DNA from: Pseudobdellovibrionaceae bacterium
GTDB lineage: Bacteria > Bdellovibrionota > Bdellovibrionia > Bdellovibrionales > Bdellovibrionaceae
Assembly: GCA_013359135.1 (NCBI GenBank)
Contig: JABWCN010000044.1
Span: 1-37,535, forward strand
Direction of reading: 5' to 3'
Length of the DNA: 37,535 nt
Position numbers and translations under genes: made by a program. Positions 1 to 34,399 of this stretch are shown piece after piece. The notes beneath the pieces were generated by a model. That model saw only the letters and a program-made list of their open reading frames with translations, had not been told where the DNA came from and ran no database searches. Position 1 is the first letter of the stretch, and every line of letters starts with the position of its first letter.

Positions 1-252
1 ATTCAGAACAAGCTGGGTACACTCTCGGAGTCGTGGGCCTAGCACCAGGTGCTGCAGATAAGCTTTGGCTTCGTCAAGTGAAGTGATGGCGAATTGCTGC
101 GCCATTGCGCTATGTCCAAGCCCGGCGATCTGCGGAAAGATAAACCAGATCCAGTGACTGGACTTTCTCCCTGCTTGGAGCTCAGCAAGGACTGTGTTGT
201 AGGTGTGCGCTTGGGCGGTGAGGAAGCGGTGGAGATTGTATGCGGCGCTCAT
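1..252 (-). CDS. DUF1810 family protein, partial (3' end beyond window)
   Basis: The frame is open from an ATG at 252 down to base 1, giving 84 codons that continue off the left edge. The product begins MSAAYNLHRFLTAQ and carries the conserved SSHWIWFIFPQIAGLG block of DUF1810, a family of about 145 residues without an established function that is sometimes misnamed calpastatin. The DNA at 1-240 matches 1479-1718, the 5' part of a second DUF1810 gene in the same orientation, at about 90% identity by eye. The two are therefore paralogues or recent duplicates flanking a toxin-antitoxin pair. The family assignment is firm; the function is unknown. Confidence 0.85.
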   Translation of the reverse strand, partial: MSAAYNLHRFLTAQAHTYNTVLAELQAGRKSSHWIWFIFPQIAGLGHSAMAQQFAITSLDEAKAYLQHLVLGPRLRECTQLVLN

Positions 253-378
253 AAACTATCTGAGGCCAAGTATATTCCATTCAGGACGATATCATGCCGT
301 GCAATGTTGGATTGCAAGGCCGGACACTCCCTCTCGGCCGGGACATCACTCTTTCCTGGCCGAATCCCCAGTGTGTGA

Positions 379-408
379 TTGACAGTTCAGCGGCATCGAG
401 TATATGAT
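379..408 (+). promoter_or_regulatory. Sigma-70-type promoter of brnTA
   Basis: A perfect -35 TTGACA (379-384) and a -10 TATGAT (403-408) are separated by 18 bases, which puts the transcription start near 415. The ATG at 404 lies inside the -10 element, so the toxin must start further downstream, at 434. This is read from sequence and not tested. Confidence 0.6.
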
Positions 409-418
409 TGCCATATAC
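400..418. promoter_or_regulatory. Inverted repeat, putative BrnA operator
   Basis: GTATATG and CATATAC form perfect 7-base arms around the 5-base spacer ATTGC. The repeat covers the -10 box and the expected transcription start of brnTA. BrnTA modules are known to be autoregulated through the DNA-binding antitoxin, so this is the natural operator candidate. The assignment rests on position and symmetry only. Confidence 0.5.
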
Positions 419-433
419 AACATAAGGCATGAG

Positions 434-754
434 ATGACGCGATTGCCAGGTGTGGAAGGGTTTAATTGGGACGAGGCAAATCTTACCAAGAATTGGGAGA
501 AGCACCGGGTTACTCCGTGGGAATGCGAGCAGGTCTTCTTCAATCTGCCGCTGGTGGTCGCCGATGACCTCGCCCATTCTACGGTGGAGCCTCGATATTA
601 CGTGCTGGGACAGACTGATGCTGGACGCCGCTTGTTTATCGTCTTCACCATCCGTCGACGGCGCATCCGCATTATTTCAGCCAGAGATATGAGTCCCAAG
701 GAGCGGAGGACGTATCGTGACCAAACTCAAAAAAAGACCGACGTTCAAGAGTGA
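434..754 (+). CDS. brnT: BrnT family toxin (DUF497), type II toxin-antitoxin
   Basis: The protein has 106 residues. It shows the BrnT pattern: an N-terminal FNWDEANLTKNWEKHRV block, a central RYYVLGQTDAGRRLFIVFT strand region and the C-terminal IRIISARDMSPKERRTY signature. BrnT proteins are RelE-fold ribonucleases that inhibit translation and are neutralised by BrnA. I chose the ATG at 434 because it follows AAGG by six bases, whereas the in-frame ATG at 404 lies inside the -10 promoter box. The 3' end overlaps the antitoxin gene by 38 bases, indicating one operon in the usual toxin-first order. The family call is strong; toxicity is inferred. Confidence 0.85.
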   Translation: MTRLPGVEGFNWDEANLTKNWEKHRVTPWECEQVFFNLPLVVADDLAHSTVEPRYYVLGQTDAGRRLFIVFTIRRRRIRIISARDMSPKERRTYRDQTQKKTDVQE

Positions 755-1007
755 GAAACAGGAAGCTGAGTTTTGGGCGTCACACGACTCAACGGAGTAT
801 GTCGACTACTCCAAGAGTCGTCGGATGGTGTTTCCCCGGTTGAAGCCGTCAACCGAGACGATCTCGCTTCGTCTGCCAAAATCCCTCTTGGATCAACTCA
901 AGACGATCGCGAACAAACGCGACGTCCCGTATCAGACACTGCTCAAGCTCTTCGTGCTCGAACGCGTCCAGGCCGAGTTGCATCACAAACCCGCCAAAGC
1001 CTCTTAG
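717..1007 (+). CDS. brnA: BrnA-type antitoxin (CopG-like DNA-binding protein)
   Basis: The protein has 96 residues and starts with GTG at 717 inside the 3' end of brnT. The N-terminal half has the KSEKQEAEFWASHDSTEY and SKSRRMVFPRLKPS segments typical of antitoxins paired with BrnT. The C-terminal half, ISLRLPKSLLDQLKTIANKR followed by DVPYQTLLK, is a ribbon-helix-helix domain. It should bind BrnT and repress the operon through the inverted repeat at 400-418. The stop codon TAG at 1005-1007 shares its last base with the left end of the repeat element at 1007-1132, so that element begins exactly where the gene ends. Confidence 0.85.
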   Translation: MTKLKKRPTFKSEKQEAEFWASHDSTEYVDYSKSRRMVFPRLKPSTETISLRLPKSLLDQLKTIANKRDVPYQTLLKLFVLERVQAELHHKPAKAS

Positions 1008-1132
1008 CAGGCTGTTGATAAAGTCCTCCAGCGTCGTTCGCGCCACGCTCAGAGGCTCAACGTACCCGACAGCGTACGATTTGCCTCTTCGATCGCTGCG
1101 GCCTTGCCGGACGGTCTTTCCGAACAGCCTGC
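1007..1132. repeat. 126-bp element with terminal inverted repeats
   Basis: The ends GCAGGCTGTT (1007-1016) and AACAGCCTGC (1123-1132) are perfect 10-base inverted repeats. Matching continues imperfectly inward (AAAG and CC blocks) to about 27 bases. There is no credible coding frame inside. The structure resembles a non-autonomous, MITE-like or REP-like interspersed element. From memory, very similar GCAGGCTGTT-ended repeats are abundant in Nitrospira-type genomes; I could not check this. It may also act as a transcription terminator for brnTA. Confidence 0.6.
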
Positions 1133-1286
1133 GAGCCCATCTGATTCCGCCGGTGAGATCGAATGCCGCGTGTGTGAGGCAATCTCACCGAGTTGGACAA
1201 CACACGGGGAGCGCGCTCCTGATCACGGCGATCGCGAGAAGCGGGGTTGAACGTGATGAGTGGAGTGAGTCAGAGCGAAAGGGGAC
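1133..1286. repeat. Intergenic stretch dense in inverted repeats
   Basis: CGGTGAGAT (1151-1159) and ATCTCACCG (1182-1190) are perfect 9-base arms. CGTGTGT near 1169 pairs with ACACACG near 1200 in a nested arrangement. GGAGCGCGCTCC at 1208-1219 is a perfect 12-base palindrome. I see no gene here. The stretch separates brnA from the converging DUF1810 gene and could be part of a larger composite repeat with 1007-1132. Confidence 0.45.
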
Positions 1287-1730
1287 CTAGCGCGGTGGCA
1301 TGTTGTGCCGGGCCAAGACGTTCATCGTCAGTTGGTCGGGCTGGCCATCGAAGTATTTGAACAGGGTATCTTTGAAGATGGCGTTGTCGGTGGTGGCGGT
1401 CATGAACAAGGTCATGCAGGACCGGAATTTCAAATAGTCGGGGTAGGGGAAGATTTCGTCAGCGCTGCGACCCTCCACATTCAGAACAAGCTGGGTACAC
1501 TCTCGGAGTCGTGGGCCTAGCACCAGGTGCTGCAGATAAGCTTTGGCTTCGTCGAGTGAAGTGATGGCGAATTGTTGTGCCATGCTGCTGTGGCCAAGAC
1601 CGGCGATTTGCGGAAAGATAAACCAGATCCAGTGGCTGGACTTTCTTCCGGCCCGCAGCTCAGCGAGGACTGTGTTGTAGACGGGTTCTTGCGCGGTGAG
1701 GAAGCGGTGGAGGTTGTAGATGTCAGACAT
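1287..1730 (-). CDS. DUF1810 family protein
   Basis: The protein is complete at 147 residues, the usual length of the family. It starts with ATG at 1730 (MSDIYNLHRFLTAQEPVYN), contains the SSHWIWFIFPQIAGLG block and ends in the family C-terminus with FKYFDGQPDQLT followed by VLARHN. The DNA near its start repeats the window's left end at about 90% identity. The gene lies between the brnTA module and the restriction gene, an accessory setting. The biochemical role is unknown. No membrane segment or signal peptide is visible, so a cytoplasmic protein is expected. Confidence 0.85.
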   Translation of the reverse strand: MSDIYNLHRFLTAQEPVYNTVLAELRAGRKSSHWIWFIFPQIAGLGHSSMAQQFAITSLDEAKAYLQHLVLGPRLRECTQLVLNVEGRSADEIFPYPDYLKFRSCMTLFMTATTDNAIFKDTLFKYFDGQPDQLTMNVLARHNMPPR

Positions 1731-1755
1731 AGTCTGTTCCCGCGCTCCCAGTTGG

Positions 1756-2628
1756 TTAGATGGCGAGATCGAAGGGGAGATCTGAAATATCGCGCAGACG
1801 ACGACCAGAAATTAGGGTATCCAACATTTCCGCTTGATCGGGGTTTCCACTCTCTTCTACAGCCTCTTTTAATTCATATAGAGCGCTGTGGTAAGTGCAA
1901 TCGACGTCGCCGGTTCCCATAGCAATGGATGCAAGTCGAGTCGGCATCGGTTCAAGAGTAACGGCTACGATATGAGGTACTTGTCCTTTTCGATTTCTGA
2001 TGAGATTGAGAGCTTCAGTCCTTGTGTTCTGAGAGCGGTCGCTGCGCATTGTCCATTTGCAGGAGATGCTGGCGTGCAAGATGTTCCGAGTTCCTTCAAA
2101 GTTTGCCGTGCGAAGTGGAGTGTGTTGTGAGAATTTCTCCGTCGGTTCGATCAGGTAATTCTTGACGTTGATTTCAGCATCACTGATTGAGCGACGAGCT
2201 ACGACAATGTCAGGGGTGATGAGATAATCGCCACCCAAGGCTGCGGAGAGTTTCTTGTGCTTCACTAAGAGGCGACTCAAATCTGCCAAATGCTCATATT
2301 GGTCAAATGCTGAAATGCCTGTAGTTGCTTGTGTTGCCGAGAATAACCAGTTTCCCGGACGCAGGTGATCCATTTTCTTGAAAGCCGCCTCAAGAAATTC
2401 TAAAGTGTATTGACTGAAGAGGGTTCCTGCTGTTTGCCCAGACTTGGGATTAGTGCAGGTAGGATGCCCCATTCGTTTTGCCATGCCTGCTGCTAGTGCT
2501 ATGCTTGTTTTGCTGCTTTTATCCGCGACAGAGAAAACCTTCAGCCCTGGTTTGTGTCCCAGAATGTTAAGGCAGATTTTCTTTTGGTAGTCTGTTCTGA
2601 GGTCGGACAGGAGAGCTTTCTTCGGCAT
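1756..2628 (-). CDS. NgoMIV-type type II restriction endonuclease
   Basis: The protein has 290 residues from ATG 2628; a TTG at 2640 is an alternative start. NgoMIV enzymes cut GCCGGC and use an Asp, a Ser-Cys-Lys triplet and a Glu for metal-dependent cleavage. Here Pro-Asp ends at residue 140, Ser-Cys-Lys is at 189-191 and the Glu is 14 residues after the Lys at 205, matching the NgoMIV spacing between Lys187 and Glu201. The conserved GQVPHIVAVTLEPMPTRLAS and GTGDVDC blocks follow. Its partner methyltransferase gene diverges from it but is cut short in this contig. An intact nuclease without its methylase would be lethal to a host with unprotected sites, which bears on whether the junction at about 3255 is real. 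The site GCCGGC is inferred from family only. Confidence 0.85.
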   Translation of the reverse strand: MPKKALLSDLRTDYQKKICLNILGHKPGLKVFSVADKSSKTSIALAAGMAKRMGHPTCTNPKSGQTAGTLFSQYTLEFLEAAFKKMDHLRPGNWLFSATQATTGISAFDQYEHLADLSRLLVKHKKLSAALGGDYLITPDIVVARRSISDAEINVKNYLIEPTEKFSQHTPLRTANFEGTRNILHASISCKWTMRSDRSQNTRTEALNLIRNRKGQVPHIVAVTLEPMPTRLASIAMGTGDVDCTYHSALYELKEAVEESGNPDQAEMLDTLISGRRLRDISDLPFDLAI

Positions 2629-2738
2629 GTCAGAGCTCAATCGGAAGGTGGAAGATCACTTAGATTATGAGCCTAAGTGTTAAGGGGTTGCTCAGTATCC
2701 AGGGTAACCGATTAATCGTGGATGTCTATATATTGCGG

Positions 2739-2766
2739 TTGACTTAAAAAATCAACTCAATATACT
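2739..2766 (+). promoter_or_regulatory. Promoter of the methyltransferase gene with internal inverted repeat
   Basis: The -35 TTGACT (2739-2744) and -10 TATACT (2761-2766) are 16 bases apart and each matches consensus at five of six positions. GTTGA (2738-2742) and TCAAC (2752-2756) form an inverted repeat over the -35 and spacer, a likely operator. On the minus strand, TTGATT and TATAGA (2755 to 2725) could form a weaker overlapping promoter for the nuclease gene. Confidence 0.55.
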
Positions 2767-2829
2767 GTTGGTTGTGTTGCCCGTATCTCTTTTGTAGTTT
2801 AGCCTTCATCCCCCACAACACAATCCTCA

Positions 2830-3621
2830 ATGGCCAAAAAAGTTGGTGCAACAAAGCGAATAGTGATCCCTCCGGACATCGATCACATATTAGGTCGATA
2901 TCCAGAACAGGCCTACGCCTTACTTAGGCATTCGTTTTCAAAATCGTCGTACAATGGCCTCCCTTCTGCAGAAAGTCTGTCCGTATATGGGAAGAGAAAG
3001 CTCAGGGTAATCGATTTGTTTTCTGGCGCCGGAGGTTTCACCTTGGGCTTGTGCCAGACCGGAAGATTTGAGCCGGTATTTGCCAATGACTTTAACGCAT
3101 ATGCCGCGAAGACCTACAACGCAAATTTCGGTGACCACTGTTTGCACGGCGATATAAATGATCTCCTTGCCAACAATTCTTTCAAGTTTCCGGATGCGGA
3201 AGTTGTGATCGGTGGGCCACCCTGTCAAGGTTTCAGCCCTTTGAACAAACAGCGTGAAGGTGATCCGATGATTAAATCACGCATTCGTCGTATTCAGAGA
3301 GAGATGGCAAGTAAAAGAATGATGGAGAAGGTTCCTAAAGGTGATGTTGTTATTACCAACCCAACACATATTGCTGTGGTGTTGAAGTATGATGAAAAAC
3401 TTCCGGCACCACAGTTGATTGCCAAAGGCGCAGATCTTGTTGCTGAAAAGATCAGAGAGATCGCCAAGCAAAATAATATTCCAATTGTAGAAAATAAACC
3501 ATTGGCTAGGACTATTTTTAAAACGATGAAATTAGGTCAAGTTATTCCTAGAGAGCTTTTCGTAGCAGTAGCTGAAGTGTTATCCTATGTTTATAAACTT
3601 AAGAGAAGGATTAAGAAATAA
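2830..3621 (+). CDS. Chimeric ORF: cytosine-5 DNA methyltransferase N-terminus joined to FlhB C-terminus
   Basis: One 263-codon frame contains two unrelated halves. Residues 1-142 are a C5 methyltransferase: a basic N-terminal extension of about 57 residues, motif [10 protein letters not shown] at 62-70 (SAM binding), and motif [12 protein letters not shown] with the catalytic Cys at 132. Motifs VI to X and the target recognition domain are missing. From Glu-Gly-Asp-Pro at 143-146 onward the protein is the cytoplasmic domain of FlhB. The methyltransferase half cannot methylate DNA. The stop codon TAA shares its last base with the ATG of flhA. The fusion is either an assembly chimera or a real recombination; I favour the former. 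Confidence 0.8.
3256..3621 (+). pseudogene. flhB: flhB 3' portion (flagellar export switch, cytoplasmic domain only)
   Basis: The sequence from [18 protein letters not shown] onward matches the FlhB linker and C-terminal domain. It includes the autocleavage motif Asn-Pro-Thr-His at chimera residues 177-180, which is cut between Asn and Pro during substrate-specificity switching, and ends with [20 protein letters not shown]. About 230 residues with the four membrane helices are absent. The following genes flhA, flhF, flhG and fliA confirm the flagellar context, so a full flhB probably exists in the source genome upstream of what was assembled here. Confidence 0.85.
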
Positions 3622-5732
3622 TGAACGATTTTTTGGAGCAATTATTTCAGTTTTTAAAGCGCTTTGAAAAGGTCACTAAAAATACTGATCTTTTTATGGC
3701 TTTTGGATTAATGGCCATTTTAGCCGTGATGATAATTCCTTTGCCACCTATTTTGCTTGATATCGCACTCACTTTTTCATTGGCTATTAGTGTACTTATC
3801 TTATTGGTTTCTTTGTATACTAAGCGAGCTTTGGATTTTACTTCATTTCCTAGCTTGTTACTACTAACAACACTGTTTCGATTATCGCTAAATGTTGCAA
3901 CGACAAGATTGATTCTAAGTCATGGCCATGAAGGAACACATGCCGCTGGAGATGTTATTCATTCTTTTGGTAACTTTGTTGTAGGGAATAATTATGTCAT
4001 AGGTTTTATTGTTTTCCTTATTTTAATTGTAATCAATTTTATAGTTATTACAAAAGGTTCTGGCCGGGTAGCTGAAGTTGCAGCTAGGTTTACACTAGAT
4101 GCGATGCCAGGAAAACAAATGTCTATTGATGCTGATTTAAATGCCGGTCTAATTAATGAGACAGATGCCAGGAAGCGTAGAAAAGAAATCGAACAGGAAG
4201 CAGATTTTTACGGAGCTATGGACGGTGCCAGTAAGTTTGTTAGAGGTGATGCTATTGCCGGTATTATCATTATGGTCATCAATATTATTGGTGGACTACT
4301 TATTGGAATGATTCAGAAGAATTTAGATATAGCTACAGCTGCAAAGTACTATACCATGTTGACTATCGGAGATGGATTATTAGCACAAATTCCTGCTTTA
4401 ATTATATCTACAGCTGCAGGTACAATAGTCACTCGTTCATCTGGGAATGATGAAAATATGGGAAAAGAAGTGACTTCTCAGTTATTTGCAAGCCCAAGAG
4501 CTTTGATGATCTCAGCGGGTGTTTTATTTTTACTAGGAATTGTGCCTGGACTCCCCACAATTCCTTTCTTCTTAATTGGAATTATCATGGCAGCAAGTTC
4601 TTGGGTTATAACTAGATACAAAGAAGAGATGGAAAAGGAAGAAAAGAAGAAAGCAGAGACTTTATCATTGGCCCCAAAAAAAGAAAATGTAGAATCTCTT
4701 TTGCCACTGGATATGGTGGAACTAGAAGTTGGGTATGGTTTAATTAATGTCGTTGAATCAAATAAAAGTGGCGATTTGTTAGAGAGAATAGTTTCTATTC
4801 GTAAGCAATTCGCATTAGATCTTGGAATAGTTATACCTAGTGTTCATATACGCGATAACTTACAGCTAGCACCTGGTGATTATAGACTACTTATTAAAGG
4901 AAATAAAGTAGGTGGAGGAAGTCTCAAGCCTGAATATATGATGGCTATGGATCCAGGAAATGTTTCGGAAAGAATAGATGGTATTCCAACAAAAGAACCT
5001 GCTTTTGGTTTAGATGCACTGTGGGTGCCGCCTTCTAGAAAAGAAGAAGCTGAAATGGCTGGATATACGGTTGTTGATTTACCTACGGTTATGGCTACTC
5101 ATTTAACTGAAATTATCAGGACACATGCTCATGAGTTATTTGGCAGACAAGAAGCTAGCCAGTTAATTGAAAACTTTAAGAAAACTCACCCAAAAGTTGT
5201 TGAAGAGTTAATTCCTGATTTGATGTCACTCGGTTCAGTTGTCAGAGTTCTTCAAAACCTTTTAAAAGAGCAAGTCTCAATCAGAGATTTGTTAACTATC
5301 TTTGAAGCTCTTGCCGATGAAGCACCTAAGCAAAAAGATATTGAGATTTTGACAGAATCAGTTCGCAAGGCTTTGAATCGATCAATCACAAGAAAGTATT
5401 CAGCAGAAGATAGTATGATACCTGTTTTAACGTTGGATCCTCATATTGAAGAATTAATTGCAAATTCTTTATTGCAAACTGAGCAAGGTGTTCAGTTGGT
5501 TATGGACCCCCAGTCTGCACACCAGCTTATTAATCAAATAGCAGTCGCTGTAGAATCAAATCCTGAAATTGCTGGGCAACCTATTCTTCTGACAACACCA
5601 ACATCAAGACGTCATTTATTTAAATTAACACATCGATTTATTCCTCAGCTGATTGTGCTTTCTCACAATGAATTGAGTAGTGATGCAAATATTAAATCTG
5701 TAGCCACTGTGGAGATGACACATGCAAGTTAA
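3621..5732 (+). CDS. flhA: Flagellar export apparatus protein FlhA
   Basis: The protein has 703 residues, the normal FlhA size. The N-terminal half has about eight hydrophobic helices (from MAILAVMIIPLPPILLDIAL onward). The FHIPEP-family signature is recognisable in the stretch around SFPSLLLLTTLFRLSLNVAT, and the cytoplasmic loop carries GSGRVAEVAARFTLDAMPGK. The C-terminal half (from about residue 350) is the soluble domain that docks chaperone-substrate complexes. FlhA forms the nonameric export gate of the flagellar type III system. The ATG overlaps the flhB stop by one base, with GAAGGA about ten bases upstream, so translation is probably coupled. The 3' end overlaps flhF by 11 bases. 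Confidence 0.97.
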   Translation: MNDFLEQLFQFLKRFEKVTKNTDLFMAFGLMAILAVMIIPLPPILLDIALTFSLAISVLILLVSLYTKRALDFTSFPSLLLLTTLFRLSLNVATTRLILSHGHEGTHAAGDVIHSFGNFVVGNNYVIGFIVFLILIVINFIVITKGSGRVAEVAARFTLDAMPGKQMSIDADLNAGLINETDARKRRKEIEQEADFYGAMDGASKFVRGDAIAGIIIMVINIIGGLLIGMIQKNLDIATAAKYYTMLTIGDGLLAQIPALIISTAAGTIVTRSSGNDENMGKEVTSQLFASPRALMISAGVLFLLGIVPGLPTIPFFLIGIIMAASSWVITRYKEEMEKEEKKKAETLSLAPKKENVESLLPLDMVELEVGYGLINVVESNKSGDLLERIVSIRKQFALDLGIVIPSVHIRDNLQLAPGDYRLLIKGNKVGGGSLKPEYMMAMDPGNVSERIDGIPTKEPAFGLDALWVPPSRKEEAEMAGYTVVDLPTVMATHLTEIIRTHAHELFGRQEASQLIENFKKTHPKVVEELIPDLMSLGSVVRVLQNLLKEQVSIRDLLTIFEALADEAPKQKDIEILTESVRKALNRSITRKYSAEDSMIPVLTLDPHIEELIANSLLQTEQGVQLVMDPQSAHQLINQIAVAVESNPEIAGQPILLTTPTSRRHLFKLTHRFIPQLIVLSHNELSSDANIKSVATVEMTHAS

Positions 5733-23759: not shown

Positions 23760-25148
23760 ATGTATAAAGACGTTTCTGAATTAAAAGACAAACGTATATT
23801 GGTTGTGGGACTTGGAAGAACAGGTGTTTCTCTTTGTCATTTTTTGAGTCAGCATGGGGCTCAAGTTACGGTGACAGATCATAAGTCAAAGCCAGAGCTA
23901 TCAGCTCAACTTGAACAACTCGAGGGCTTGCCGATCAAATTTGAACTTGGATCCCATTCTCCAAAAACTTTTTTACAGCAAGAATTGGTGATTTTAAGTC
24001 CCGGAGTTTCGCCAGTTCTTAAAATTTTTGAATACGCTAGAAATCAAGGTATTAAAATCACAGGTGAGTTTGAGTTTGCGCAAGCATTTATTAAAGAGCC
24101 CATTATCAGTATTACCGGAACAAATGGTAAAACGACAGTTGGGCGCATGATGGAAAGAATGTTTACAGAAAGCGGTATTACTTGTTGGATAGGTGGTTCA
24201 AATGAAAAACCACTCACTGATTACTTAAGATACAATTTAAAAACTCAAGTAGTAATTGTTGAAGTTTCAAGTTTCATGTTGGAGCATGCTGAAACATTTA
24301 ATCCTCAAAATATAGTATTTACGAATCTAGCTGAGAATCATTTAGATCGTTATCGTTCTATGGAAGAGTATATCAATGCCAAGAGAAGAATTTTTAGAAA
24401 TACTAACCAAATGACGACTTCAATTTTAAATGCAGACGACAATGCTGTAGTTGAATTAGCTAGAGATCCAGCCGTTCAAAGAGGAAAGATTTTTTATTTC
24501 TCAAGAAAGCAAGCATTAGAGCCACAAATTATGAATATAGGTGGTGCTGTTAATATTGGTGACGAAATTAGAGTAAGAACAGGTCCAGAAATAGATTACT
24601 TCAGTATTAAAAATGTGAAAATTAGAGGAAAACATAATGTAGAGAACATTATGGCTGCTATTTTAACTGCTCGCGAACATGGTGCAAAAACAGAAGCTAT
24701 TCAAAAAGTGATTGATAGTTTTACAGGTTTACCTCATCGCATTGAATATGTCAGAAAAGTTAGGGGAGCTTTATTTTACAATGACTCTAAAGCTACTAAT
24801 GTTCATGCAGTTTTGAGGTCTTTGGATACCTTTGATGAAAACGTTATTTTGATTATGGGTGGCAAAGATACCAACTTAAATTATGAGCCTTTAAGAAACA
24901 TGATAAAAAGGAAAGTGAAGACGTTAATTTTGGTTGGTGAGGCTAAGGAACGAATTAATAGAGAGTTGGGTGATTTCGCTGAGACTTTTCTAATCGGAAC
25001 GTTTGAAGAAGCTGTTTTGATTTCTTTTCATAAAACAAGGATTGGTGACATTGTGTTGTTATCGCCTGGTTGCTCTAGTCATGACATGTTTGATAGCTAT
25101 GAAGAACGTGGTGATTACTTTAAAGAAATCATCAGAAAGTTTCAATAA
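23760..25148 (+). CDS. murD: UDP-N-acetylmuramoylalanine--D-glutamate ligase MurD
   Basis: The protein has 462 residues, a typical MurD length. The N-terminal Rossmann-like domain opens with RILVVGLGRTGVSLCHFL. The central ATPase domain has the P-loop SITGTNGKTTVGRMME and the ENHLDRYRSMEEYINAKRRI block with its conserved Lys. The C-terminal domain has GLPHRIEYVRKVRGALFYND, SKATN and LLSPGCSSHDMFDSYEERG. It adds D-Glu to UDP-MurNAc-L-Ala in the cytoplasm. The gene follows mraY closely and is followed by a 270-base gap with hairpins, so the mraY-murD unit may end here. Confidence 0.97.
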   Translation: MYKDVSELKDKRILVVGLGRTGVSLCHFLSQHGAQVTVTDHKSKPELSAQLEQLEGLPIKFELGSHSPKTFLQQELVILSPGVSPVLKIFEYARNQGIKITGEFEFAQAFIKEPIISITGTNGKTTVGRMMERMFTESGITCWIGGSNEKPLTDYLRYNLKTQVVIVEVSSFMLEHAETFNPQNIVFTNLAENHLDRYRSMEEYINAKRRIFRNTNQMTTSILNADDNAVVELARDPAVQRGKIFYFSRKQALEPQIMNIGGAVNIGDEIRVRTGPEIDYFSIKNVKIRGKHNVENIMAAILTAREHGAKTEAIQKVIDSFTGLPHRIEYVRKVRGALFYNDSKATNVHAVLRSLDTFDENVILIMGGKDTNLNYEPLRNMIKRKVKTLILVGEAKERINRELGDFAETFLIGTFEEAVLISFHKTRIGDIVLLSPGCSSHDMFDSYEERGDYFKEIIRKFQ

Positions 25149-25162
25149 ATCAAATCTATAGG

Positions 25163-25192
25163 CAGATCTCTTTAATTTTCAAAAGAGATCTG
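25163..25192 (+). terminator. Hairpin after murD, possible terminator
   Basis: CAGATCTCTTT (25163-25173) and AAAGAGATCTG (25182-25192) form a perfect 11-base stem with an eight-base loop. The downstream sequence TCATAATCATT is only moderately T-rich, so termination may be partial. Confidence 0.45.
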
Positions 25193-25242
25193 TCATAATC
25201 ATTAATGGGTATTCTATTTTTTATAAGAATCTGTTGTCTACC

Positions 25243-25363
25243 TATTTCAAAGTCGAGATCTAGTGTCTTAGATTCCAATCATTTTGAAATAACCTTGAAT
25301 TCGATCGTTAATTAAATAAAATATTTTTGAGAGTTAGTTATTTCCTCTACATACATTGTAGAG
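25243..25363. repeat. Two further inverted repeats upstream of the small lipoprotein gene
   Basis: TATTTCAAA (25243-25251) and TTTGAAATA (25283-25291) are perfect arms around a 31-base loop. CTCTACA (25345-25351) and TGTAGAG (25357-25363) form a short hairpin with a five-base loop. I see no gene or known riboswitch between murD and 25427. The repeats may be regulatory for the lipoprotein-ftsW-murG-murC unit. Confidence 0.4.
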
Positions 25364-25426
25364 ATTAATTGTTATTGCTAATGGTTATTTGAGCCAGAGC
25401 TAATTAGGAATCATAAGGAGTTGACT

Positions 25427-25762
25427 ATGTTTGCTAGGTTGTTACCAATTATATTTTTGGTTATAGGAATGGTATTAGGTGGTTGTTCATCGGCTCAAAA
25501 AAGACAAGAAGAGCGTAATAAGGTGGCCCAAAGTTCAGGGCTTTATTGTGAGTTTGTAAATGGTGATGCTAATAATGATGTAGATGTTGAAATCAATTTA
25601 CAAATGTCTAAGAAATGTGACATTTCTAAACAGTTTACAATTACGAACTATAAAAATGCATCAGACATTTTTGGTCTTGTATACTGTTGTCACTATCAAA
25701 AAGGTAAAGCCCCTGCTGCTCCAGGAGCTAAGGCTTCTGGAAATACTGATGGGTTAGATTGA
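25427..25762 (+). CDS. Small lipoprotein between murD and ftsW
   Basis: The protein has 111 residues. The start ATG 25427 follows AAGGAG by six bases. The N-terminus FARLLPIIFLVIGMVLGGC is a lipoprotein signal with lipobox Leu-Gly-Gly-Cys. The mature part has four more Cys, including a Cys-Cys pair (VYCCHYQKG), and ends in an Ala/Gly/Pro-rich tail. No known family. It lies four bases before ftsW and is very likely cotranscribed with it, so a role at the envelope during wall synthesis is possible, though unproven. Confidence 0.8.
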   Translation: MFARLLPIIFLVIGMVLGGCSSAQKRQEERNKVAQSSGLYCEFVNGDANNDVDVEINLQMSKKCDISKQFTITNYKNASDIFGLVYCCHYQKGKAPAAPGAKASGNTDGLD

Positions 25763-25766
25763 TTTT

Positions 25767-26864
25767 ATGCTCAAGCCTTTATCCTCGAACCTTTTTATAG
25801 CTATTTTGGCTTTGCTGGGTACAGGTCTTGTTCAGGTTTATAGTTCAAGTTATATTTTTGCTTTCGAGACTTATGGTGATGGTCTCTTTTTTTTTAAAAA
25901 ACAGGCTATTTTTTTAGTGCTTGGTCTTTTGGCTTTTTTTTCAGCCTTTTCTTTACCTTTAAAGTGGGTTGAAAAATCGAGTTGGCTTCTTTGGGTTATC
26001 GGTTTCTTTGGCGTCGTTCTGACTTTAATACCAGGAGTGGGAGTTAAAGTTGGTGGTGCGCACAGATGGTTGCAGTTACCTTTGGGGATTCGATTTGAGC
26101 CCGGTGAACTGTTAAAAATAGCTTTTGTGTTTTACTTCTCTTCAATATTGTATTTACGGCAAGAACTTTTTAAAAAAATACCACTTTACGTTTTACTTAT
26201 ATTATTAGTTTTACCTTTGGTACTGCTACTTAAACAGCCGGATTTTGGTAGCTTTTCAATCATATGTTTAACTGCAGTCGCTTTGCTCTTTATTTTTGGT
26301 TTGTCATGGAAGTACATTGCAAGCGCTGTGATTGCTGCAATACCTTTATTTTATTTTTTAGTTATGAAAGTAGATTATCGTAGAGCTAGGGTGATGGCCT
26401 TTTTAGATCCTTGGGCGGATCCAGAGCACAAAGGATTTCAAGTGATTCAATCAATGCTCAGTTTTCACTCAGGAGGCTTTTCGGGAGTAGGAATTGGCCA
26501 GGGACAAGGAAAGTTATTTTTCCTTCCAGAAGCGCATACTGATTTTACTTTGGCTGTATTTGGCGAGGAAATGGGATTTATTGGTTTCTTTCTTCTATTG
26601 AGTCTCTATGGATTTATTATTTATCGAACCTTACAAATAGCATTTATGGTAAAAGCTGAGTTTCTGAAGTCCCTTGTCATTGGGGCCGCTACAGTATTTG
26701 GAATAAATGTTTTTATTAATTGCGGAGTTGTGCTAGGCTTACTTCCAACTAAGGGACTCACTCTACCTTTTTTAAGCTATGGTGGAAGCTCTCTAGTTAT
26801 TTACATGTTTCTTTTTGGAATCATTGTAAATATTGAAAAAAATATGGAGCGAAATTTAAATTGA
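25767..26864 (+). CDS. ftsW: Lipid II polymerase FtsW
   Basis: The protein has 365 residues and about ten membrane segments. SEDS-family landmarks are GAHRWLQLPLGIRFEPGELL, LKQPDFGSFSIICLTAVALL, the loop Asp-Pro-Trp-Ala-Asp-Pro, HTDFTLAVFGEEMGFIG and the C-terminal GLTLPFLSYGGSS. FtsW polymerises septal peptidoglycan with its partner transpeptidase. RodA is the alternative, but the position before murG and murC within a division cluster favours FtsW. The stop codon overlaps the TTG start of murG (TTGA), indicating translational coupling. Confidence 0.95.
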   Translation: MLKPLSSNLFIAILALLGTGLVQVYSSSYIFAFETYGDGLFFFKKQAIFLVLGLLAFFSAFSLPLKWVEKSSWLLWVIGFFGVVLTLIPGVGVKVGGAHRWLQLPLGIRFEPGELLKIAFVFYFSSILYLRQELFKKIPLYVLLILLVLPLVLLLKQPDFGSFSIICLTAVALLFIFGLSWKYIASAVIAAIPLFYFLVMKVDYRRARVMAFLDPWADPEHKGFQVIQSMLSFHSGGFSGVGIGQGQGKLFFLPEAHTDFTLAVFGEEMGFIGFFLLLSLYGFIIYRTLQIAFMVKAEFLKSLVIGAATVFGINVFINCGVVLGLLPTKGLTLPFLSYGGSSLVIYMFLFGIIVNIEKNMERNLN

Positions 26865-27991
26865 AAAAAATTATCATTGCTGGTGGTGGTACGGGTGGAC
26901 ATATCTATCCTGCAATCACCATTGCTAAAGCGATCCTTAAATTAAATAGTGAGTGGGAAGTTGAGTTTGTTGGAACTGCTGAGGGATTAGAAGCTAAAAT
27001 TATTCCCAGAGAAGGTTTTAAAATCAGTTTTATTTCAGTTGGAAAACTTAATTATGCAGGATCCTTATTTAAAAAAATTAAAACTCTTTTGAGGTTGCCT
27101 TGGTCATTTATAAAGTGTTTGGCCTTGGTCATCGAAAAAAAACCAGTTTTGGTTTTAGGGGTTGGTGGTTATGTTTCAGGTCCCTTTGTTTTAGCTAGTT
27201 CTATTATGGGAGTTCCTACAGCATTGTGGGAACCCAATGCACATCCAGGTTTAACAAATAGATTGTTAGCTCGCTTTGTGAGAAAGTGCTTCATTGTTTT
27301 TGAAGAAGCTAAGAAGCATTTAAAAGCTAGAAGTTACATGAAGGTTGGAATTCCAGTGAGAGAAGAAATTGAGAAGTTAAACTCATACGTTGATTTTGAT
27401 AATGTGTCTTCAACAGAACAAAGTCATGGATTGCAAAAGTTTAAAGTCTTAGTCTTTGGGGGATCGCAAGGAGCAAGAGCAATTAATTTAGCCATAAAAG
27501 AAATGTTTGAAAAATACCATTCAGAGTTAACTTCATTTGAATTTATTCATCAAACTGGTATGGTTGATTTTCAGGAAGTGAATCAAAGTTATTCTTCGCA
27601 TCCAGATTTTTCTAATATTAAAGCTTTAGAATATGTCTATGATATGGATAACAAATATCGTTGGGCCGATCTAGTTATTTGCAGAGCTGGAGCGGGTACT
27701 GTTGCTGAGATCGCGGCGTCAGGAAAGCCAGCAATCTTTATTCCTCTGCCTTGGGCAGCAGATGATCATCAAAGAAAAAATGCAGAAGCTTTAGTTAGTA
27801 AAAAAGCAGCAGTGATGATAGATCAAAAGAACTTAACACCAAGAGTTCTTTTAGATAAAATCGTTGAGATTCAAAAAGACCTTTCTTTAAGGCGACAAAT
27901 GAGTGAGAACGTGAAGCATTTCTTCTTCCCTAATGCGGCAGAAAAAATGGCAACACAATTAATTAACCTACAGTATGAAAACGAAGAGTAG
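26861..27991 (+). CDS. murG: UDP-GlcNAc:lipid I N-acetylglucosaminyltransferase MurG
   Basis: The protein has 376 residues from a TTG start that overlaps the ftsW stop by four bases. The N-terminal loop IIIAGGGTGGHIYPAI, VLGVGGYVSGPFVLAS and WEPNAHPGLTNRLLA belong to the acceptor-binding half. The C-terminal half has VFGGSQGARAIN and the UDP-GlcNAc site ICRAGAGTVAEIAASGKPAI with PLPWAADDHQRKNA. MurG makes lipid II on the cytoplasmic face of the inner membrane. murC follows three bases after the stop codon. Confidence 0.97.
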   Translation: MKKIIIAGGGTGGHIYPAITIAKAILKLNSEWEVEFVGTAEGLEAKIIPREGFKISFISVGKLNYAGSLFKKIKTLLRLPWSFIKCLALVIEKKPVLVLGVGGYVSGPFVLASSIMGVPTALWEPNAHPGLTNRLLARFVRKCFIVFEEAKKHLKARSYMKVGIPVREEIEKLNSYVDFDNVSSTEQSHGLQKFKVLVFGGSQGARAINLAIKEMFEKYHSELTSFEFIHQTGMVDFQEVNQSYSSHPDFSNIKALEYVYDMDNKYRWADLVICRAGAGTVAEIAASGKPAIFIPLPWAADDHQRKNAEALVSKKAAVMIDQKNLTPRVLLDKIVEIQKDLSLRRQMSENVKHFFFPNAAEKMATQLINLQYENEE

Positions 27992-27994
27992 GAT

Positions 27995-29359
27995 ATGAGC
28001 TTACAAAAGTCTAAATTTCATTTTATTGGTATTGGTGGCATTGGCATGTGTGGCTTGGCCGAGGTTTTGAAAAACATGGGACTTGAGGTCACAGGTAGTG
28101 ATCTTTCAGAAAATGCTAATACTGAAAATTTAAAGAAAAAAGGAATTAAAATTTTTATTGGTCACAGTGAGAAGCATTTAGGTGATGTTGATGTTGTGGT
28201 TTATAGCTCGGCAGTTTCTGTGCAGAATCCAGAAATGAAAGAGGCAAGAGCTCGTGGGATACCAGTAATTCCAAGGGCTGAAGCTTTGGCAGAGATAATG
28301 AGATCTAGACGTGGGATTGCTATTGCTGGAACTCACGGAAAAACAACTACAACAAGTTTAGTTTCGACAATTTTTCTTGAAGCTAATAAAAGTCCTACAA
28401 TTATTGTCGGAGGAAAGTTTCAAAATATTGGTTCCACCGCACAGCTTGGAAAAAGTGATTGGATGATAGCTGAAGCTGATGAAAGTGATGGTAGTTTTAA
28501 TAAATTAACGCCAGAGATATCTATTATTACTAATATTGATTCAGATCATATGGATTATTATAAAACTTTTGATAATCTACAAAAAGCCTTTTACGAGTTT
28601 GCATTAAAAATTCCTTTTTATGGAATTAATATTATTTTTGGTGATGATCATGTGACTCGAAATCTTTTCGAAAATTTTCCTAAAAAAATTTGGTTTTACG
28701 GGTTTAACCCCAAAAATGACTTTTGGTTGAGTGGAGAAAAAAGCAATTATCAGATATTTTATAATAATAAAAAATCGGGCACTCAAGATTTGTTAGGTCA
28801 GTTGCAATTAGAAATTCCTGGTCGACATAATGCTTTAAATTCTTTAGCAGCTCTTCTGGTGGCAAATCATTGTGGACTGGACTTGAAAGAAGCTTTAACT
28901 TCATTAAAAAACTATAAAGGCGTTGATCGTCGCTTTCAGTTTAAGGGTGAAATCAATGATATTAAAGTTTATGATGATTATGGGCATCATCCAACTGAAG
29001 TTAGAGCTGTATTAGAGGCTTTTAAAGAGAAATTTCCAGATAGGCGTTTAGTTACTTTGTTCCAACCGCATCGTTATTCCAGAACCCAAAGTTGCTGGAG
29101 TGAGTTTTTAAATTGTTTTTATTTGTCAGATTTAGTTATTCTTACTGATATTTATCCTGCAGGTGAGGAGCCAATTCCAAATATAACTGCTAAGAATTTG
29201 TATGAAGAATTAAAAATAGAAAAGAAATTTTATCTGCCTAAAAGTAGCGATATTATTTCCTCGATGAAGCATATCTTAAAACCAGGTGATGTTTTCCTAA
29301 CGTTAGGAGCTGGTGATGGATGGAAAATAGGTATGGACTTATTGACTTCTTTGCGTTGA
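27995..29359 (+). CDS. murC: UDP-N-acetylmuramate--L-alanine ligase MurC
   Basis: The protein has 454 residues. It opens with FHFIGIGGIGMCGLAEVLK, has the ATP-binding loop AIAGTHGKTTTTSLVS, the EADESDGSF and NIDSDHMDYY blocks, and in the C-terminal domain VYDDYGHHPTEVRAVLEAF and TLFQPHRYSRT. MurC adds L-Ala to UDP-MurNAc, the first peptide step of peptidoglycan precursor synthesis. AGGAT lies just before the ATG. In many genomes murB and ddl follow murC; here three small lipoprotein genes follow, starting nine bases after the stop. Confidence 0.97.
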   Translation: MSLQKSKFHFIGIGGIGMCGLAEVLKNMGLEVTGSDLSENANTENLKKKGIKIFIGHSEKHLGDVDVVVYSSAVSVQNPEMKEARARGIPVIPRAEALAEIMRSRRGIAIAGTHGKTTTTSLVSTIFLEANKSPTIIVGGKFQNIGSTAQLGKSDWMIAEADESDGSFNKLTPEISIITNIDSDHMDYYKTFDNLQKAFYEFALKIPFYGINIIFGDDHVTRNLFENFPKKIWFYGFNPKNDFWLSGEKSNYQIFYNNKKSGTQDLLGQLQLEIPGRHNALNSLAALLVANHCGLDLKEALTSLKNYKGVDRRFQFKGEINDIKVYDDYGHHPTEVRAVLEAFKEKFPDRRLVTLFQPHRYSRTQSCWSEFLNCFYLSDLVILTDIYPAGEEPIPNITAKNLYEELKIEKKFYLPKSSDIISSMKHILKPGDVFLTLGAGDGWKIGMDLLTSLR

Positions 29360-29367
29360 AATAAAGT

Positions 29368-29826
29368 ATGTCCAAAATAATAAATAAAACTTTAAAAATT
29401 ATATTTTTATATAGTACTTTGATGTGTCTTTCCTCTTGTGCTTATTTACATCATGTTCAGGTAGGGGAAATAGATAGTACAGGTGATAATGATTTAATAC
29501 CTTTTGAAATTAAAGTTAGTGAGTTCGGTATTGATCTAAATGATGCGAAGTCGACTTCTAAAATTTTGATGAATTCTAAAAACTCTAAACAGGCTGACGA
29601 AATTTTAACAATGCTTCAGTACTTTCAAATGGGTCCTAAGACAGGGGCTCCTGTTTTTTCAGTAGCTTATGTTAACCATTTAGAAAATAAAATTAGAGAA
29701 AACTGTCCAAGTGGAAGAGTTACAGGAATTATGAGTATTAGAGAAGCTAGGCAGTATCCCGTGATTAAGGGTGAAATTGTAAAAATTAAAGGTTATTGTT
29801 TGAGATCTAAAAAGGAAAAAATATGA
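29368..29826 (+). CDS. Small lipoprotein 1 of a three-gene paralogous set
   Basis: The protein has 152 residues. Its signal peptide LKIIFLYSTLMCLSSC ends in the lipobox Leu-Ser-Ser-Cys. The mature C-terminal part has NCPSGRVTGIMSIREARQYP and ends near KIKGYC. The two following genes share the pattern Cys-x2-Gly-x2-(Ser/Thr)-Gly and a closing Gly-x-Cys, which suggests one disulfide and one fold. The layout recalls Bor/TRL-like phage and spirochaete lipoproteins, but this is a weak inference. It overlaps the next gene by four bases and follows murC by eight, so it belongs to the murC transcript. Confidence 0.78.
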   Translation: MSKIINKTLKIIFLYSTLMCLSSCAYLHHVQVGEIDSTGDNDLIPFEIKVSEFGIDLNDAKSTSKILMNSKNSKQADEILTMLQYFQMGPKTGAPVFSVAYVNHLENKIRENCPSGRVTGIMSIREARQYPVIKGEIVKIKGYCLRSKKEKI

Positions 29827-30251
29827 AAGTTGTTTTAATCGCATTACTAAGTATTTATTTTATAGGGTGTGTTTCGTTAAATACGGTATCGTTGACTTCT
29901 ATTCCAGCTAACAGAAGTAAACCTGTGGTGGCAACAACTGAAAGACTCATGTTTTTTGGTTTTAACTTTGACAATGATTATGTTGATTATTTAACAGATA
30001 ATTTGAAGAATCAATGTCCACATGGGTTGATATCTGGAGTGTTAACTAAAGATGAAAGTATAGATTATTTTTTATATATTGTTTGGAAGAAAAGAATTAC
30101 AGCTCAAGGCTATTGTGTGTCTCTAAAGTCGGCAGCAAGCTCTAAGTCGTCTTCTAATATTGGGAGTGAAAATCCTCGTAAGAGAAATCCATCCAATATG
30201 ACTTCTGAAATTGATTCCAAACAAGAATCAGTGGAAGTGTCAGATGAATAG
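29823..30251 (+). CDS. Small lipoprotein 2 of the paralogous set
   Basis: The protein has 142 residues. The signal MKVVLIALLSIYFIGC has lipobox Phe-Ile-Gly-Cys. The core RLMFFGFNFDNDYVDYL and NQCPHGLISGVLTKDES, with AQGYC near residue 100, is shared with its neighbours. A Ser/Lys/Asn-rich tail of about 40 residues is unique to this copy and probably disordered. It starts within the stop of lipoprotein 1 (ATGA) and overlaps lipoprotein 3 by eight bases, so the three are translated together. Function unknown. Confidence 0.78.
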   Translation: MKVVLIALLSIYFIGCVSLNTVSLTSIPANRSKPVVATTERLMFFGFNFDNDYVDYLTDNLKNQCPHGLISGVLTKDESIDYFLYIVWKKRITAQGYCVSLKSAASSKSSSNIGSENPRKRNPSNMTSEIDSKQESVEVSDE

Positions 30252-30579
30252 AATGTGGGTTTTAAAAGTTATTTTATTATTTGGAATTTTCATGTCATTA
30301 GCTTCTTGTACACATAGTGTTCATATAGTTAATTTTTCTGATTTTAGACCCTATAGAGAGGCTAAAACGGCTGTTAGTATTGAAGCTAAATCAGAACAGT
30401 TTGTTGTGTTGGGTTTTACTGACAATACTAGTTATGTTAATGAAGCCTATCAACGATTGATGCAGAAATGTATCGATGGGCAGATTTCTGGTATATCGAC
30501 ACAATATTACACTTCACTTGGCTTCTTTTCATGGACAAATCACATAGTGATGCAGGGTCTTTGTCACAAAGTTAACTAG
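30244..30579 (+). CDS. Small lipoprotein 3 of the paralogous set
   Basis: The protein has 111 residues. The signal WVLKVILLFGIFMSLASC has lipobox Leu-Ala-Ser-Cys. Its core EQFVVLGFTDNTSYVNEAY and KCIDGQISGISTQYY, with the end QGLC, aligns with lipoproteins 1 and 2. I chose ATG 30244 inside the previous gene's 3' end; ATG 30253 is nearly as good. The last codons overlap the 3' end of the convergent chemoreceptor gene by eight bases, and no terminator is visible between them. Confidence 0.75.
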   Translation: MNRMWVLKVILLFGIFMSLASCTHSVHIVNFSDFRPYREAKTAVSIEAKSEQFVVLGFTDNTSYVNEAYQRLMQKCIDGQISGISTQYYTSLGFFSWTNHIVMQGLCHKVN

Positions 30580-32125
30580 CTTTGTTGTAGTTAGTTTTAT
30601 CAGTTAAAACACCACCATCAATAATAAAAGCCAATACTTGCATTTGGTTATGTAGTTGTCTTGCTTTTTGATTTAGCAATTCACTAGAGGCCGCAGTCTC
30701 TTCTGCACTGGCTGCATTTTGTTGTGTCAGTTTATCTAATTCAAGAATAGATTTGTTGATAGTTGTCATTCCTTGTGATTGTTCATTAGAAGCATTTGCA
30801 ATTTCGATATTAAGGGTTGTTACCTTTTCAACAGCTTCAACAATACTGTGCAGAGATTCTCCGCTATCTTTAGCGACTTGAAAGCCAGTATTGATTTTAT
30901 CAACACTTTCTTTAATTAGAGAAGAAATTTCCTTAGCAGAAATAGAAGATCTTTGAGCTAGGGCTCTGACTGCTTCGGCAACTACAGCAAAACCTTTTCC
31001 TTGTTCACCTGCTCTGGCAGCTTCTACAGCGGCATTTAGAGCTAATAAATTTGTTTGGAAGGCAATGTCATCTATAACATTTATAATTTCTTCTATTTTT
31101 TTTGAGCTTTGAGAGATTTCATTCATTGAATTTATTAAATTCTCGACATTTACTCTCCCTTGCTTTGCTCGGTTCTGACAATCTTGAGCTAAAGTTTTGG
31201 CTTGTTCCGAGTTGCTAGCATTAAGTTTAATCATACTGGAAACTTCTTCAGTTGAAGCTGAAGTCTCTTCTATGGAAGCTGCTGCTTCTGTTGCAGCTAC
31301 GCTCAAAGATTGGGAAGAGTTAGAAATTTCATTACTTGCATTATAAAGTTCTGAACCCACAGCATTGATTTCATTATTAACTATTTTTAAGTTTTCCATC
31401 ACTTGTTTGGTAATTAAAAAGCCAATGATCAATGCACAAGCTATTCCTAAAACACCGAAGCCTATAATTGAAAAAATGCTGGCTTTAATTTGTTCTTTGA
31501 TGTGTTGTTTACTTTGAATAATTGCAAAAACAGCATGAAGATGATTATCCTGCCAGTTCTCCATTTTATAGCCTAAAATATCCTTACCATTACCCCAAGG
31601 AGATGTAGTTGGATTCCCATGACAAGTCAAACACCCATGTTTTTCAGAAAGTCTAACAGGGCGATAAACAATAACTTGATCTGAAGTTGATTCCACAATT
31701 TGAGGAATGTTTTCTTTGGCAAAGCGCTCAAGAATTTCACTTTCGCTACTTGTTGCTAAATTTTTTTCTTTTCTGGGGTTTTTACTGAAAACACGAAATT
31801 CATAACCTTCTTTTTCTGCGCCTTCAGAGCCAATTTTGAGAGAGGCATAAATAGGAACTTGGTTTAGTACAATTTGCTTAGCTTCATTAGAAAGTTTACC
31901 ATCGGGATATTGAGCTTTAATCGTTGCAATTGTGGAATTTAATCCACCCTGGTTGGCAACAAAATCTCTGGCGACTTCAAGTCTAGAAAGAATAGCTGTG
32001 GATTTGTTAATTAAATCCAGTTCTCCTTGCTTTTTAAGTTCATAAGAAGAGGTGAATATTTCAATAATTAAACCAAGTGTACTTGCGAAAATGATAGCAA
32101 TGATAATCCGTGTATTTAACTTCAT
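30572..32125 (-). CDS. Methyl-accepting chemotaxis protein with Tll0287-like (DUF3365) haem sensor
   Basis: The protein has 517 residues. A membrane segment at about 7-27 and a second at about 216-238 bracket a periplasmic domain with the c-type haem motif Cys-Leu-Thr-Cys-His at 165-169, in the setting PVRLSEKHGCLTCHGNP typical of DUF3365/Tll0287-like sensors. No clear HAMP domain follows. The cytoplasmic part has the highly conserved hairpin tip IDDIAFQTNLLALNAAVEAA and RAGEQGKGFAVVAEAVRALA, which contacts CheA and CheW. It likely senses redox state or a haem ligand such as oxygen or NO. The gene is reversed within the division cluster, between the lipoproteins and ftsQ. Confidence 0.92.
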   Translation of the reverse strand: MKLNTRIIIAIIFASTLGLIIEIFTSSYELKKQGELDLINKSTAILSRLEVARDFVANQGGLNSTIATIKAQYPDGKLSNEAKQIVLNQVPIYASLKIGSEGAEKEGYEFRVFSKNPRKEKNLATSSESEILERFAKENIPQIVESTSDQVIVYRPVRLSEKHGCLTCHGNPTTSPWGNGKDILGYKMENWQDNHLHAVFAIIQSKQHIKEQIKASIFSIIGFGVLGIACALIIGFLITKQVMENLKIVNNEINAVGSELYNASNEISNSSQSLSVAATEAAASIEETSASTEEVSSMIKLNASNSEQAKTLAQDCQNRAKQGRVNVENLINSMNEISQSSKKIEEIINVIDDIAFQTNLLALNAAVEAARAGEQGKGFAVVAEAVRALAQRSSISAKEISSLIKESVDKINTGFQVAKDSGESLHSIVEAVEKVTTLNIEIANASNEQSQGMTTINKSILELDKLTQQNAASAEETAASSELLNQKARQLHNQMQVLAFIIDGGVLTDKTNYNKAS

Positions 32126-32151
32126 GATGGTTCCTACTCTGTTCTACACAG

Positions 32152-32178
32152 CATATCGCAAATTTTTTTTTTTGTTTA
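32152..32178 (-). promoter_or_regulatory. Possible sigma-28 promoter of the chemoreceptor gene
   Basis: On the minus strand TAAA (32178-32175), an A-rich spacer and GCGATATG (32159-32152) resemble the FliA consensus TAAA-N15-GCCGATAA, with the CGATA core shifted one base closer. Chemoreceptors are typical FliA targets and fliA is present in this window. The match is imperfect. Confidence 0.3.
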
Positions 32179-32299
32179 AGTCTAGTCTTTTGAGTTCAGT
32201 TTCTAGATTTTAGTTGAGCCAGACCTTGATAAGCTAATTTTTTAAATTTTTTTAGTGTAAGATTAAGTAAAAAATAGATATTGAAACTAAGGTGTTAAC

Positions 32300-33082
32300 T
32301 TGATTGATAAAAATGTAAGAAAAGAAATTAAACCAGCTGTAATTAAAGCTTTCAAGTTTATTTTTATGAGTTTTTTTTTCTTAGCTATAGTAATTCTTCC
32401 TGTGCTATTTCTTAATAAAAAAGGATTTTTTGATATAAAAACAATAAATGTCCAGATGTCTGAAAGAACAAATTCAGATAAAGTTTACTTTCAAAGCCTA
32501 ACTACAAGGTTAGCACAAGATTTAGAAAGATATAAAAACAGTTCTTTGTTGCAAGTAAAACTTGGAGAGATTCACAAGGCATTGTTGCAATCTGCTTGGA
32601 TTAAAAATTATGAGATTCGTAGAGAGTGGCCAGAAACCCTAGCTATCAAAATTATTCCCAATGAGGTTGTGATGCTATACTGGGATAAACAGCATAATCC
32701 ATATGCTATTTATGAAAATAATAAGATGGAACTTATTAGTGATAAACGCATTACTCCTGATAAAATTCATAATTATGATCATACTGTTTTTATGAATGAA
32801 AATATACGCAAGCGAATGATTGAGCTGATTCAAAATCTTCCTGAGAATGGACCTGTTGTTGAGAGTGAGATTGCGCAAGTTGGTTATACTCAACAGACTG
32901 GGTTTTGGTTGGAGTTAGTAAAAAAACAAATTGAGATTAAATTAGGTGAAGAAAGCTTGAATTTAAAACTAGACCGAGTTTCAAATGTGCTCGAGTATCT
33001 TTCGCAGAAGCAAATTAATGCTCGCGTCATAGATGCTAATCTCAATCAGAAAGTTCTTGTCAGGTTGCGTAAGGATCCCTAA
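32300..33082 (+). CDS. ftsQ: Cell division protein FtsQ
   Basis: The protein has 260 residues from a TTG start with AAGGTG five bases upstream. A short basic cytoplasmic N-terminus is followed by one membrane helix (FIFMSFFFLAIVILPVLFL, about 18-36). A POTRA domain with GFFDIKTINVQ comes next, and the FtsQ domain contains SAWIKNYEIRREWPETLAIK and a C-terminal NARVIDANLNQKVLVRLR. FtsQ recruits FtsB and FtsL to the septum. It lies directly before ftsA and ftsZ, the classical order. Divergence from the chemoreceptor gene across 174 bases implies a promoter in that gap, although I cannot single one out. Confidence 0.93.
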   Translation: MIDKNVRKEIKPAVIKAFKFIFMSFFFLAIVILPVLFLNKKGFFDIKTINVQMSERTNSDKVYFQSLTTRLAQDLERYKNSSLLQVKLGEIHKALLQSAWIKNYEIRREWPETLAIKIIPNEVVMLYWDKQHNPYAIYENNKMELISDKRITPDKIHNYDHTVFMNENIRKRMIELIQNLPENGPVVESEIAQVGYTQQTGFWLELVKKQIEIKLGEESLNLKLDRVSNVLEYLSQKQINARVIDANLNQKVLVRLRKDP

Positions 33083-33135
33083 GCTAAAGTCATAGGACTT
33101 AAGAATGAGTCCGTATAGATTTAAGGGATTATTCC

Positions 33136-34386: not shown

Positions 34387-34399
34387 TAGGGGAGAGAAT

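Follow-up and report, generated by a model that had tools for sequence, protein, structure and literature searches.

An open reading frame at 2830-3621 (plus strand) begins as a C5 DNA methylase and ends as FlhB, the export switch protein of the flagellum. Is this frame a gene of the bacterium, or did it arise when DNA from two organisms was joined into one contig? The window, by which we mean the whole stretch of DNA analyzed (37,535 nt), is the complete contig C91 of a genome bin with 94 contigs and 3.84 Mb, rated 99.98% complete and 1.15% contaminated. On the basis of sequence comparisons, we are highly confident that C91 is a false join between Nitrospira-type DNA and the second half of the bin's own flhB.

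A methylase start and an FlhB end in one reading frame

The frame runs for 263 codons without interruption by a stop codon. Residues 58-142 match the C5 methylase family (PF00145, profile positions 1-81/324, E 1.8e-21), with a match to FlhB following at residues 140-254 (PF01312, profile positions 220-335/335, E 6.2e-54). NCBIfam matches agree with this order of methylase and then FlhB. The original prediction was that a methylase start had been fused in frame to an FlhB end and that both were truncated, and these profile matches bear it out. Both the catalytic PPCQG motif IV of the methylase and the NPTH autocleavage site of FlhB are present. The methylase part (2830-3246, plus strand) is the N-terminal part of the partner of an NgoMIV-type enzyme and is cut after motif IV. 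The FlhB part (3267-3621, plus strand) is the C-terminal part encoded by the bin's own genome. A functional C5 methylase has motifs I to X, including the target-recognition domain, but the frame spans only the first 81 of the 324 profile positions. Similarly, a functional FlhB has its N-terminal membrane domain and its NPTH domain in one protein, but here only profile positions 220-335 are encoded. Because most of the methylase motifs and all of the FlhB membrane helices are missing, a working fusion protein is not credible.

The two parts meet at AAACAGCGTGAAGGTGATCC (3247-3266, plus strand), which encodes the peptide KQREGDP. All 20 of these bases are identical in the intact methylases of genomes G110 and G108. 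The flhB gene of G003, a genome from the same genus as the bin, encodes the same peptide and shares 15 of the 20 bases. Directly to the left (3181-3246), 62 of 66 bases are those of the G110 methylase versus 18 of 66 for G003 flhB, whereas directly to the right (3267-3330) the counts are 13 of 64 for the methylase and 48 of 64 for flhB. Homology with the methylases of G110, G108, and G040 stops directly after 3266, and the alignments with FlhB start at 3246/3247 for four relatives and at 3256 for the closest one. Because the window matches the methylase to the left and flhB to the right, the alignments place the crossover within 3247-3266. The 20 bases are an upper bound on the shared stretch, as the bin's own flhB DNA at this point is not independently known. 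A shared length of about 20 bases would suit the small k-mers of common short-read assemblers. The joining is in frame because KQREGDP, which the methylase and FlhB families both encode at the joint, is common to them. A switch at a Glu-Gly-Asp-Pro stretch and a short shared sequence near 3251-3270 had both been proposed; the first lies within KQREGDP, and the second held up with its interval refined to 3247-3266.

Base composition changes at the same place. The G+C content is 0.55 at 1-1718 and 0.47 at 1719-3246, and it is 0.34 in the rest of the contig beyond the frame. Within the frame it is 0.48 in the methylase part and 0.37 in the FlhB part. This drop from 0.47-0.55 to 0.34-0.37 agrees with the predicted fall from about one-half to about one-third at the frame switch. 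The G+C content at third codon positions follows the same course (0.51 in the methylase part, 0.32 in the FlhB part, and 0.25 in flhA).

Complementary halves of flhB on two contigs

A profile search of the whole bin found two FlhB matches, neither of them full. One covers profile positions 2-207 (C3:117289-117906), and the other covers positions 226-346 (C91:3247-3606). An intact flhB elsewhere in the assembly had been suggested as a way to decide the matter. The search gave no intact copy in the bin, only these two complementary halves, and this is the appearance expected when an assembly breaks one intact flhB. When aligned to the intact flhB of G003, the halves are collinear and separated by a gap of about 57 nt, or 19 residues (RWDLEKKMMMTKHEIKEET). 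The missing 57 nt were not found elsewhere in the bin, where the C91 end alone matched, although with so short a query this is a weak negative. All five same-genus genomes have flhB as a single intact open reading frame, and an FlhB match above the family cutoff was found in 36 of the 40 genomes searched, a set that includes the bin.

Both halves lie beside flagellar genes. On C3, fliL-M-N-O-P-Q-R precede the first half of flhB, which lies near the contig end (gene names other than flhB were read by eye from translations). On C91, the second half is followed by an intact, native flhA (3621-5732, plus strand; TIGR01398, 928 bits, above the cutoff) and then by an flhF-like gene (assigned by eye), an flhG-like MinD/ParA ATPase gene, and a gene for a flagellar-type sigma factor. 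The flhB-flhA region of C91 is collinear with the same-genus genomes at 71 to 77% DNA identity. The C-terminal cytoplasmic part with its NPTH site is followed by flhA, as in relatives, and the difference is that the membrane part sits on another contig of the same bin. A division and cell wall cluster (23760-36052), encoding two Mur ligases, an FtsW/RodA family protein, FtsA, and FtsZ, is on the same contig as these flagellar genes. In G014, a genome of the same family, flhB is also split over two contig ends (C35:3-923 and C55:3-239), at a different place and with overlapping profile ranges.

The first half of flhB, too, continues into foreign sequence. On C3, it runs in frame into TrhO residues (NF001133, profile positions 48-166/229). 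This TrhO fragment lacks both ends, and an archaemetzincin gene in convergent orientation lies immediately next to it; the region with this second false join is C3:117904-119058, equivalent to 2116-3270 of locus L003. The bin also has a TrhO of its own, encoded by a full open reading frame on C74 and with 30% identity to the C3 fragment. No archaemetzincin was found in the 19 relatives searched. The tail of C3 has a G+C content of 30 to 34%, and in a search for its source (TrhO fragment and archaemetzincin), plasmid records were less than 60% identical. On the strength of TrhO sequences in general, a tentative guess is that this tail may be from Bacteroidota. A further joint probably separates the TrhO fragment from the archaemetzincin gene. 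Because the C3 half runs into a foreign TrhO beside archaemetzincin, and the bin has a TrhO of its own, the flhB region was broken in the assembly, with each side joined to different foreign DNA.

The Nitrospira-type segment to the left of the joint

Everything to the left of the joint (1-3246) is foreign, Nitrospira-type DNA, and no second copy of it was found in the bin. Positions 1-1718 are 97.9% identical to G120:C55 and 89 to 90% identical to G102 and G117. These three genomes, as well as G110 and G108, share the family of G040, a groundwater metagenome-assembled genome titled "Nitrospirae bacterium" that is the source of locus L027. The flanks of the breakpoint are therefore from different genomes, the left resembling the G040 family and the right collinear with the bin's same-genus relatives. 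Among 175 genomes of the Nitrospira-type family, the best matches to 1719-3246, the restriction-modification part, were only 77 to 84% identical, and no contig matched all of 1-3246 near-identically. The exact donor strain is absent from the genome collection searched.

The segment begins with two copies of a DUF1810 gene (1-252 and 1287-1730, minus strand). They flank a BrnT/BrnA toxin-antitoxin pair (404-754 and 717-1007, plus strand) as a direct repeat of 240 nt that is 90% identical, and C91 begins inside this repeat. G120 has the same DUF1810-BrnT/BrnA arrangement, 98% identical over 1-1718. A stretch of about 130 bases (approximately 1005-1136) matches at 80 to 89% in very many Nitrospira-type family genomes, sometimes more than once per genome, and resembles a repeat dispersed through that lineage.

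An intact NgoMIV-type restriction endonuclease gene follows (1756-2640, minus strand), with the full-length match to PF09015 that identifies this enzyme (profile positions 2-275/275, E 3.5e-103). The protein is 91% identical (best segment) to its counterpart in L027, where the divergently oriented methylase is a full 406 amino acids. The methylases of G110 and G108 are also full length (406 amino acids), with 83 to 84% DNA identity to the window. Therefore, both genes that meet at the joint are intact in their source lineages, the methylase in these genomes and flhB in all five same-genus genomes. The C91 locus resembles that of L027 in its divergent restriction and C5 methylase genes, and it differs in that the methylase is cut after motif IV, solely through the false join. 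An intact NgoMIV-type methylase elsewhere in the assembly had also been proposed as informative, but the whole bin has no other PF00145 match, and so a genome rated 99.98% complete lacks the C-terminal half of the methylase. In G110:C7 (737-3677 of locus L064), the same methylase is near a DUF1810 gene, and other open reading frames, one of them HNH-like by eye, replace the NgoMIV-type restriction gene. This raises the possibility of a nuclease swap beside a conserved methylase in G110.

Origin and consequences of the join

C91 is best explained as follows. Bases 1 to approximately 3246 derive from a Nitrospira-type bacterium that was presumably part of the same sample and in whose lineage the methylase is intact. 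Bases from approximately 3267 onward derive from the flagellated bacterium of the bin, with flhB almost certainly intact in the cell. The assembly would have crossed from one gene to the other in a stretch of at most 20 bases (3247-3266) in which both encode KQREGDP. The first half of flhB, near the end of C3, would have been falsely joined to a fragment of another organism's trhO. From the two halves, the intact genes of relatives, the foreign left side, and the shared stretch, as read from the alignments, we infer that the two sides were brought together by the assembler, or already in a chimeric molecule or read, and not in the cell. A chimeric contig had been put forward as the simplest explanation, and the missing FlhB half in the bin, the intact relatives, and the foreign left side bear this out. 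Counting against it, no donor contig matches the whole left side closely, and it is unusual for the two edges of one 57-nt gap in flhB each to carry a false join, to different DNA in each case.

That double break could be read differently. A large foreign insertion inside flhB, with one of its ends in the tail of C3 and the other at the beginning of C91, would leave foreign DNA flanking both halves and only about 57 nt unaccounted for between them, as is seen here. The flhB gene would then be truly broken, and the methylase would be broken beside the NgoMIV-type enzyme. However, the two ends differ, one being Nitrospira-like with a G+C content of 47 to 55% (C91) and the other having a G+C content of 30 to 34%, a TrhO fragment, and archaemetzincin (C3). 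Both ends are cut within coding genes, and neither resembles a mobile element: there was no tRNA and no Rfam match, and positions 1-3300 of C91 have no inverted repeat, the duplicated DUF1810 direct repeat being the only repeat there. Furthermore, the transfer would have to be extremely recent to explain 98% DNA identity over 1.7 kb to an unrelated lineage, a cell left with the restriction enzyme but no methylase would not be expected to survive, and flhB is intact in relatives. Therefore, we consider an insertion very improbable. We give still less credence, close to none, to a cross-lineage recombination at KQREGDP that produced a functional fusion of methylase and FlhB. In its favor, a conserved peptide marks the joint and the reading frame is kept, but the shared peptide explains the frame. 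Neither function could remain, as the product would have no methylase target-recognition domain, none of the later methylase motifs, and no FlhB membrane helices. Also, the N-terminal half of FlhB is separate in the same bin, and same-genus genomes have an ordinary full-length flhB. A real recombination that broke flhB and the methylase together, the alternative in the original prediction, finds no support: the other flhB half is in the bin, relatives are intact, and the methylase is intact in the donor lineage. The proposed consequence, a cell with no full export switch and an unprotected restriction enzyme, is dropped with it.

Within the reading of C91 as a false join, the joint could predate assembly. 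A chimeric molecule or read, from library ligation or from PCR template switching, might have been followed by the assembler. Template switching could likewise use the shared stretch of at most 20 bases, and the second false join, across the gap in flhB, is in keeping with such an origin. Such molecules are normally rare compared with true ones, however, and an assembler would usually take the true path, so we regard this as unlikely, though less so than the insertion. The present sequence data do not distinguish it from pure assembler error.

Chimeric contigs are a recognized problem in metagenome assembly. How many arise varies strongly with the assembler, and among short-read assemblers, megahit made more than SPAdes in one benchmark (PMC11261854). 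Misassemblies are relatively rare compared with misbinning, and single-copy marker scores detect nonredundant foreign DNA poorly (PMC8201837), which fits the low contamination figure of this bin. C91 is like the chimeric contigs described in metagenome-assembled genomes (PMC8201837, PMC11261854) in that two lineages occupy one contig of a bin that scores well for both completeness and contamination. It differs in that the joint is on a peptide common to two unrelated protein families, which produced a convincing in-frame hybrid gene.

The hybrid gene is not a real feature and has no biological novelty. If an insertion of two origins were true, this would be a bacterium without a flagellar export switch and with an NgoMIV-type enzyme beside a broken methylase. 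Instead, flhB is almost certainly intact in the cell, which almost certainly lacks an NgoMIV-type system. An in-frame hybrid at a conserved motif can be wholly artificial, even when the bin is rated 99.98% complete and 1.15% contaminated. In gene content comparisons, the foreign 3.2 kb would falsely give this species a restriction-modification system, a toxin-antitoxin pair, and the loss of flhB.
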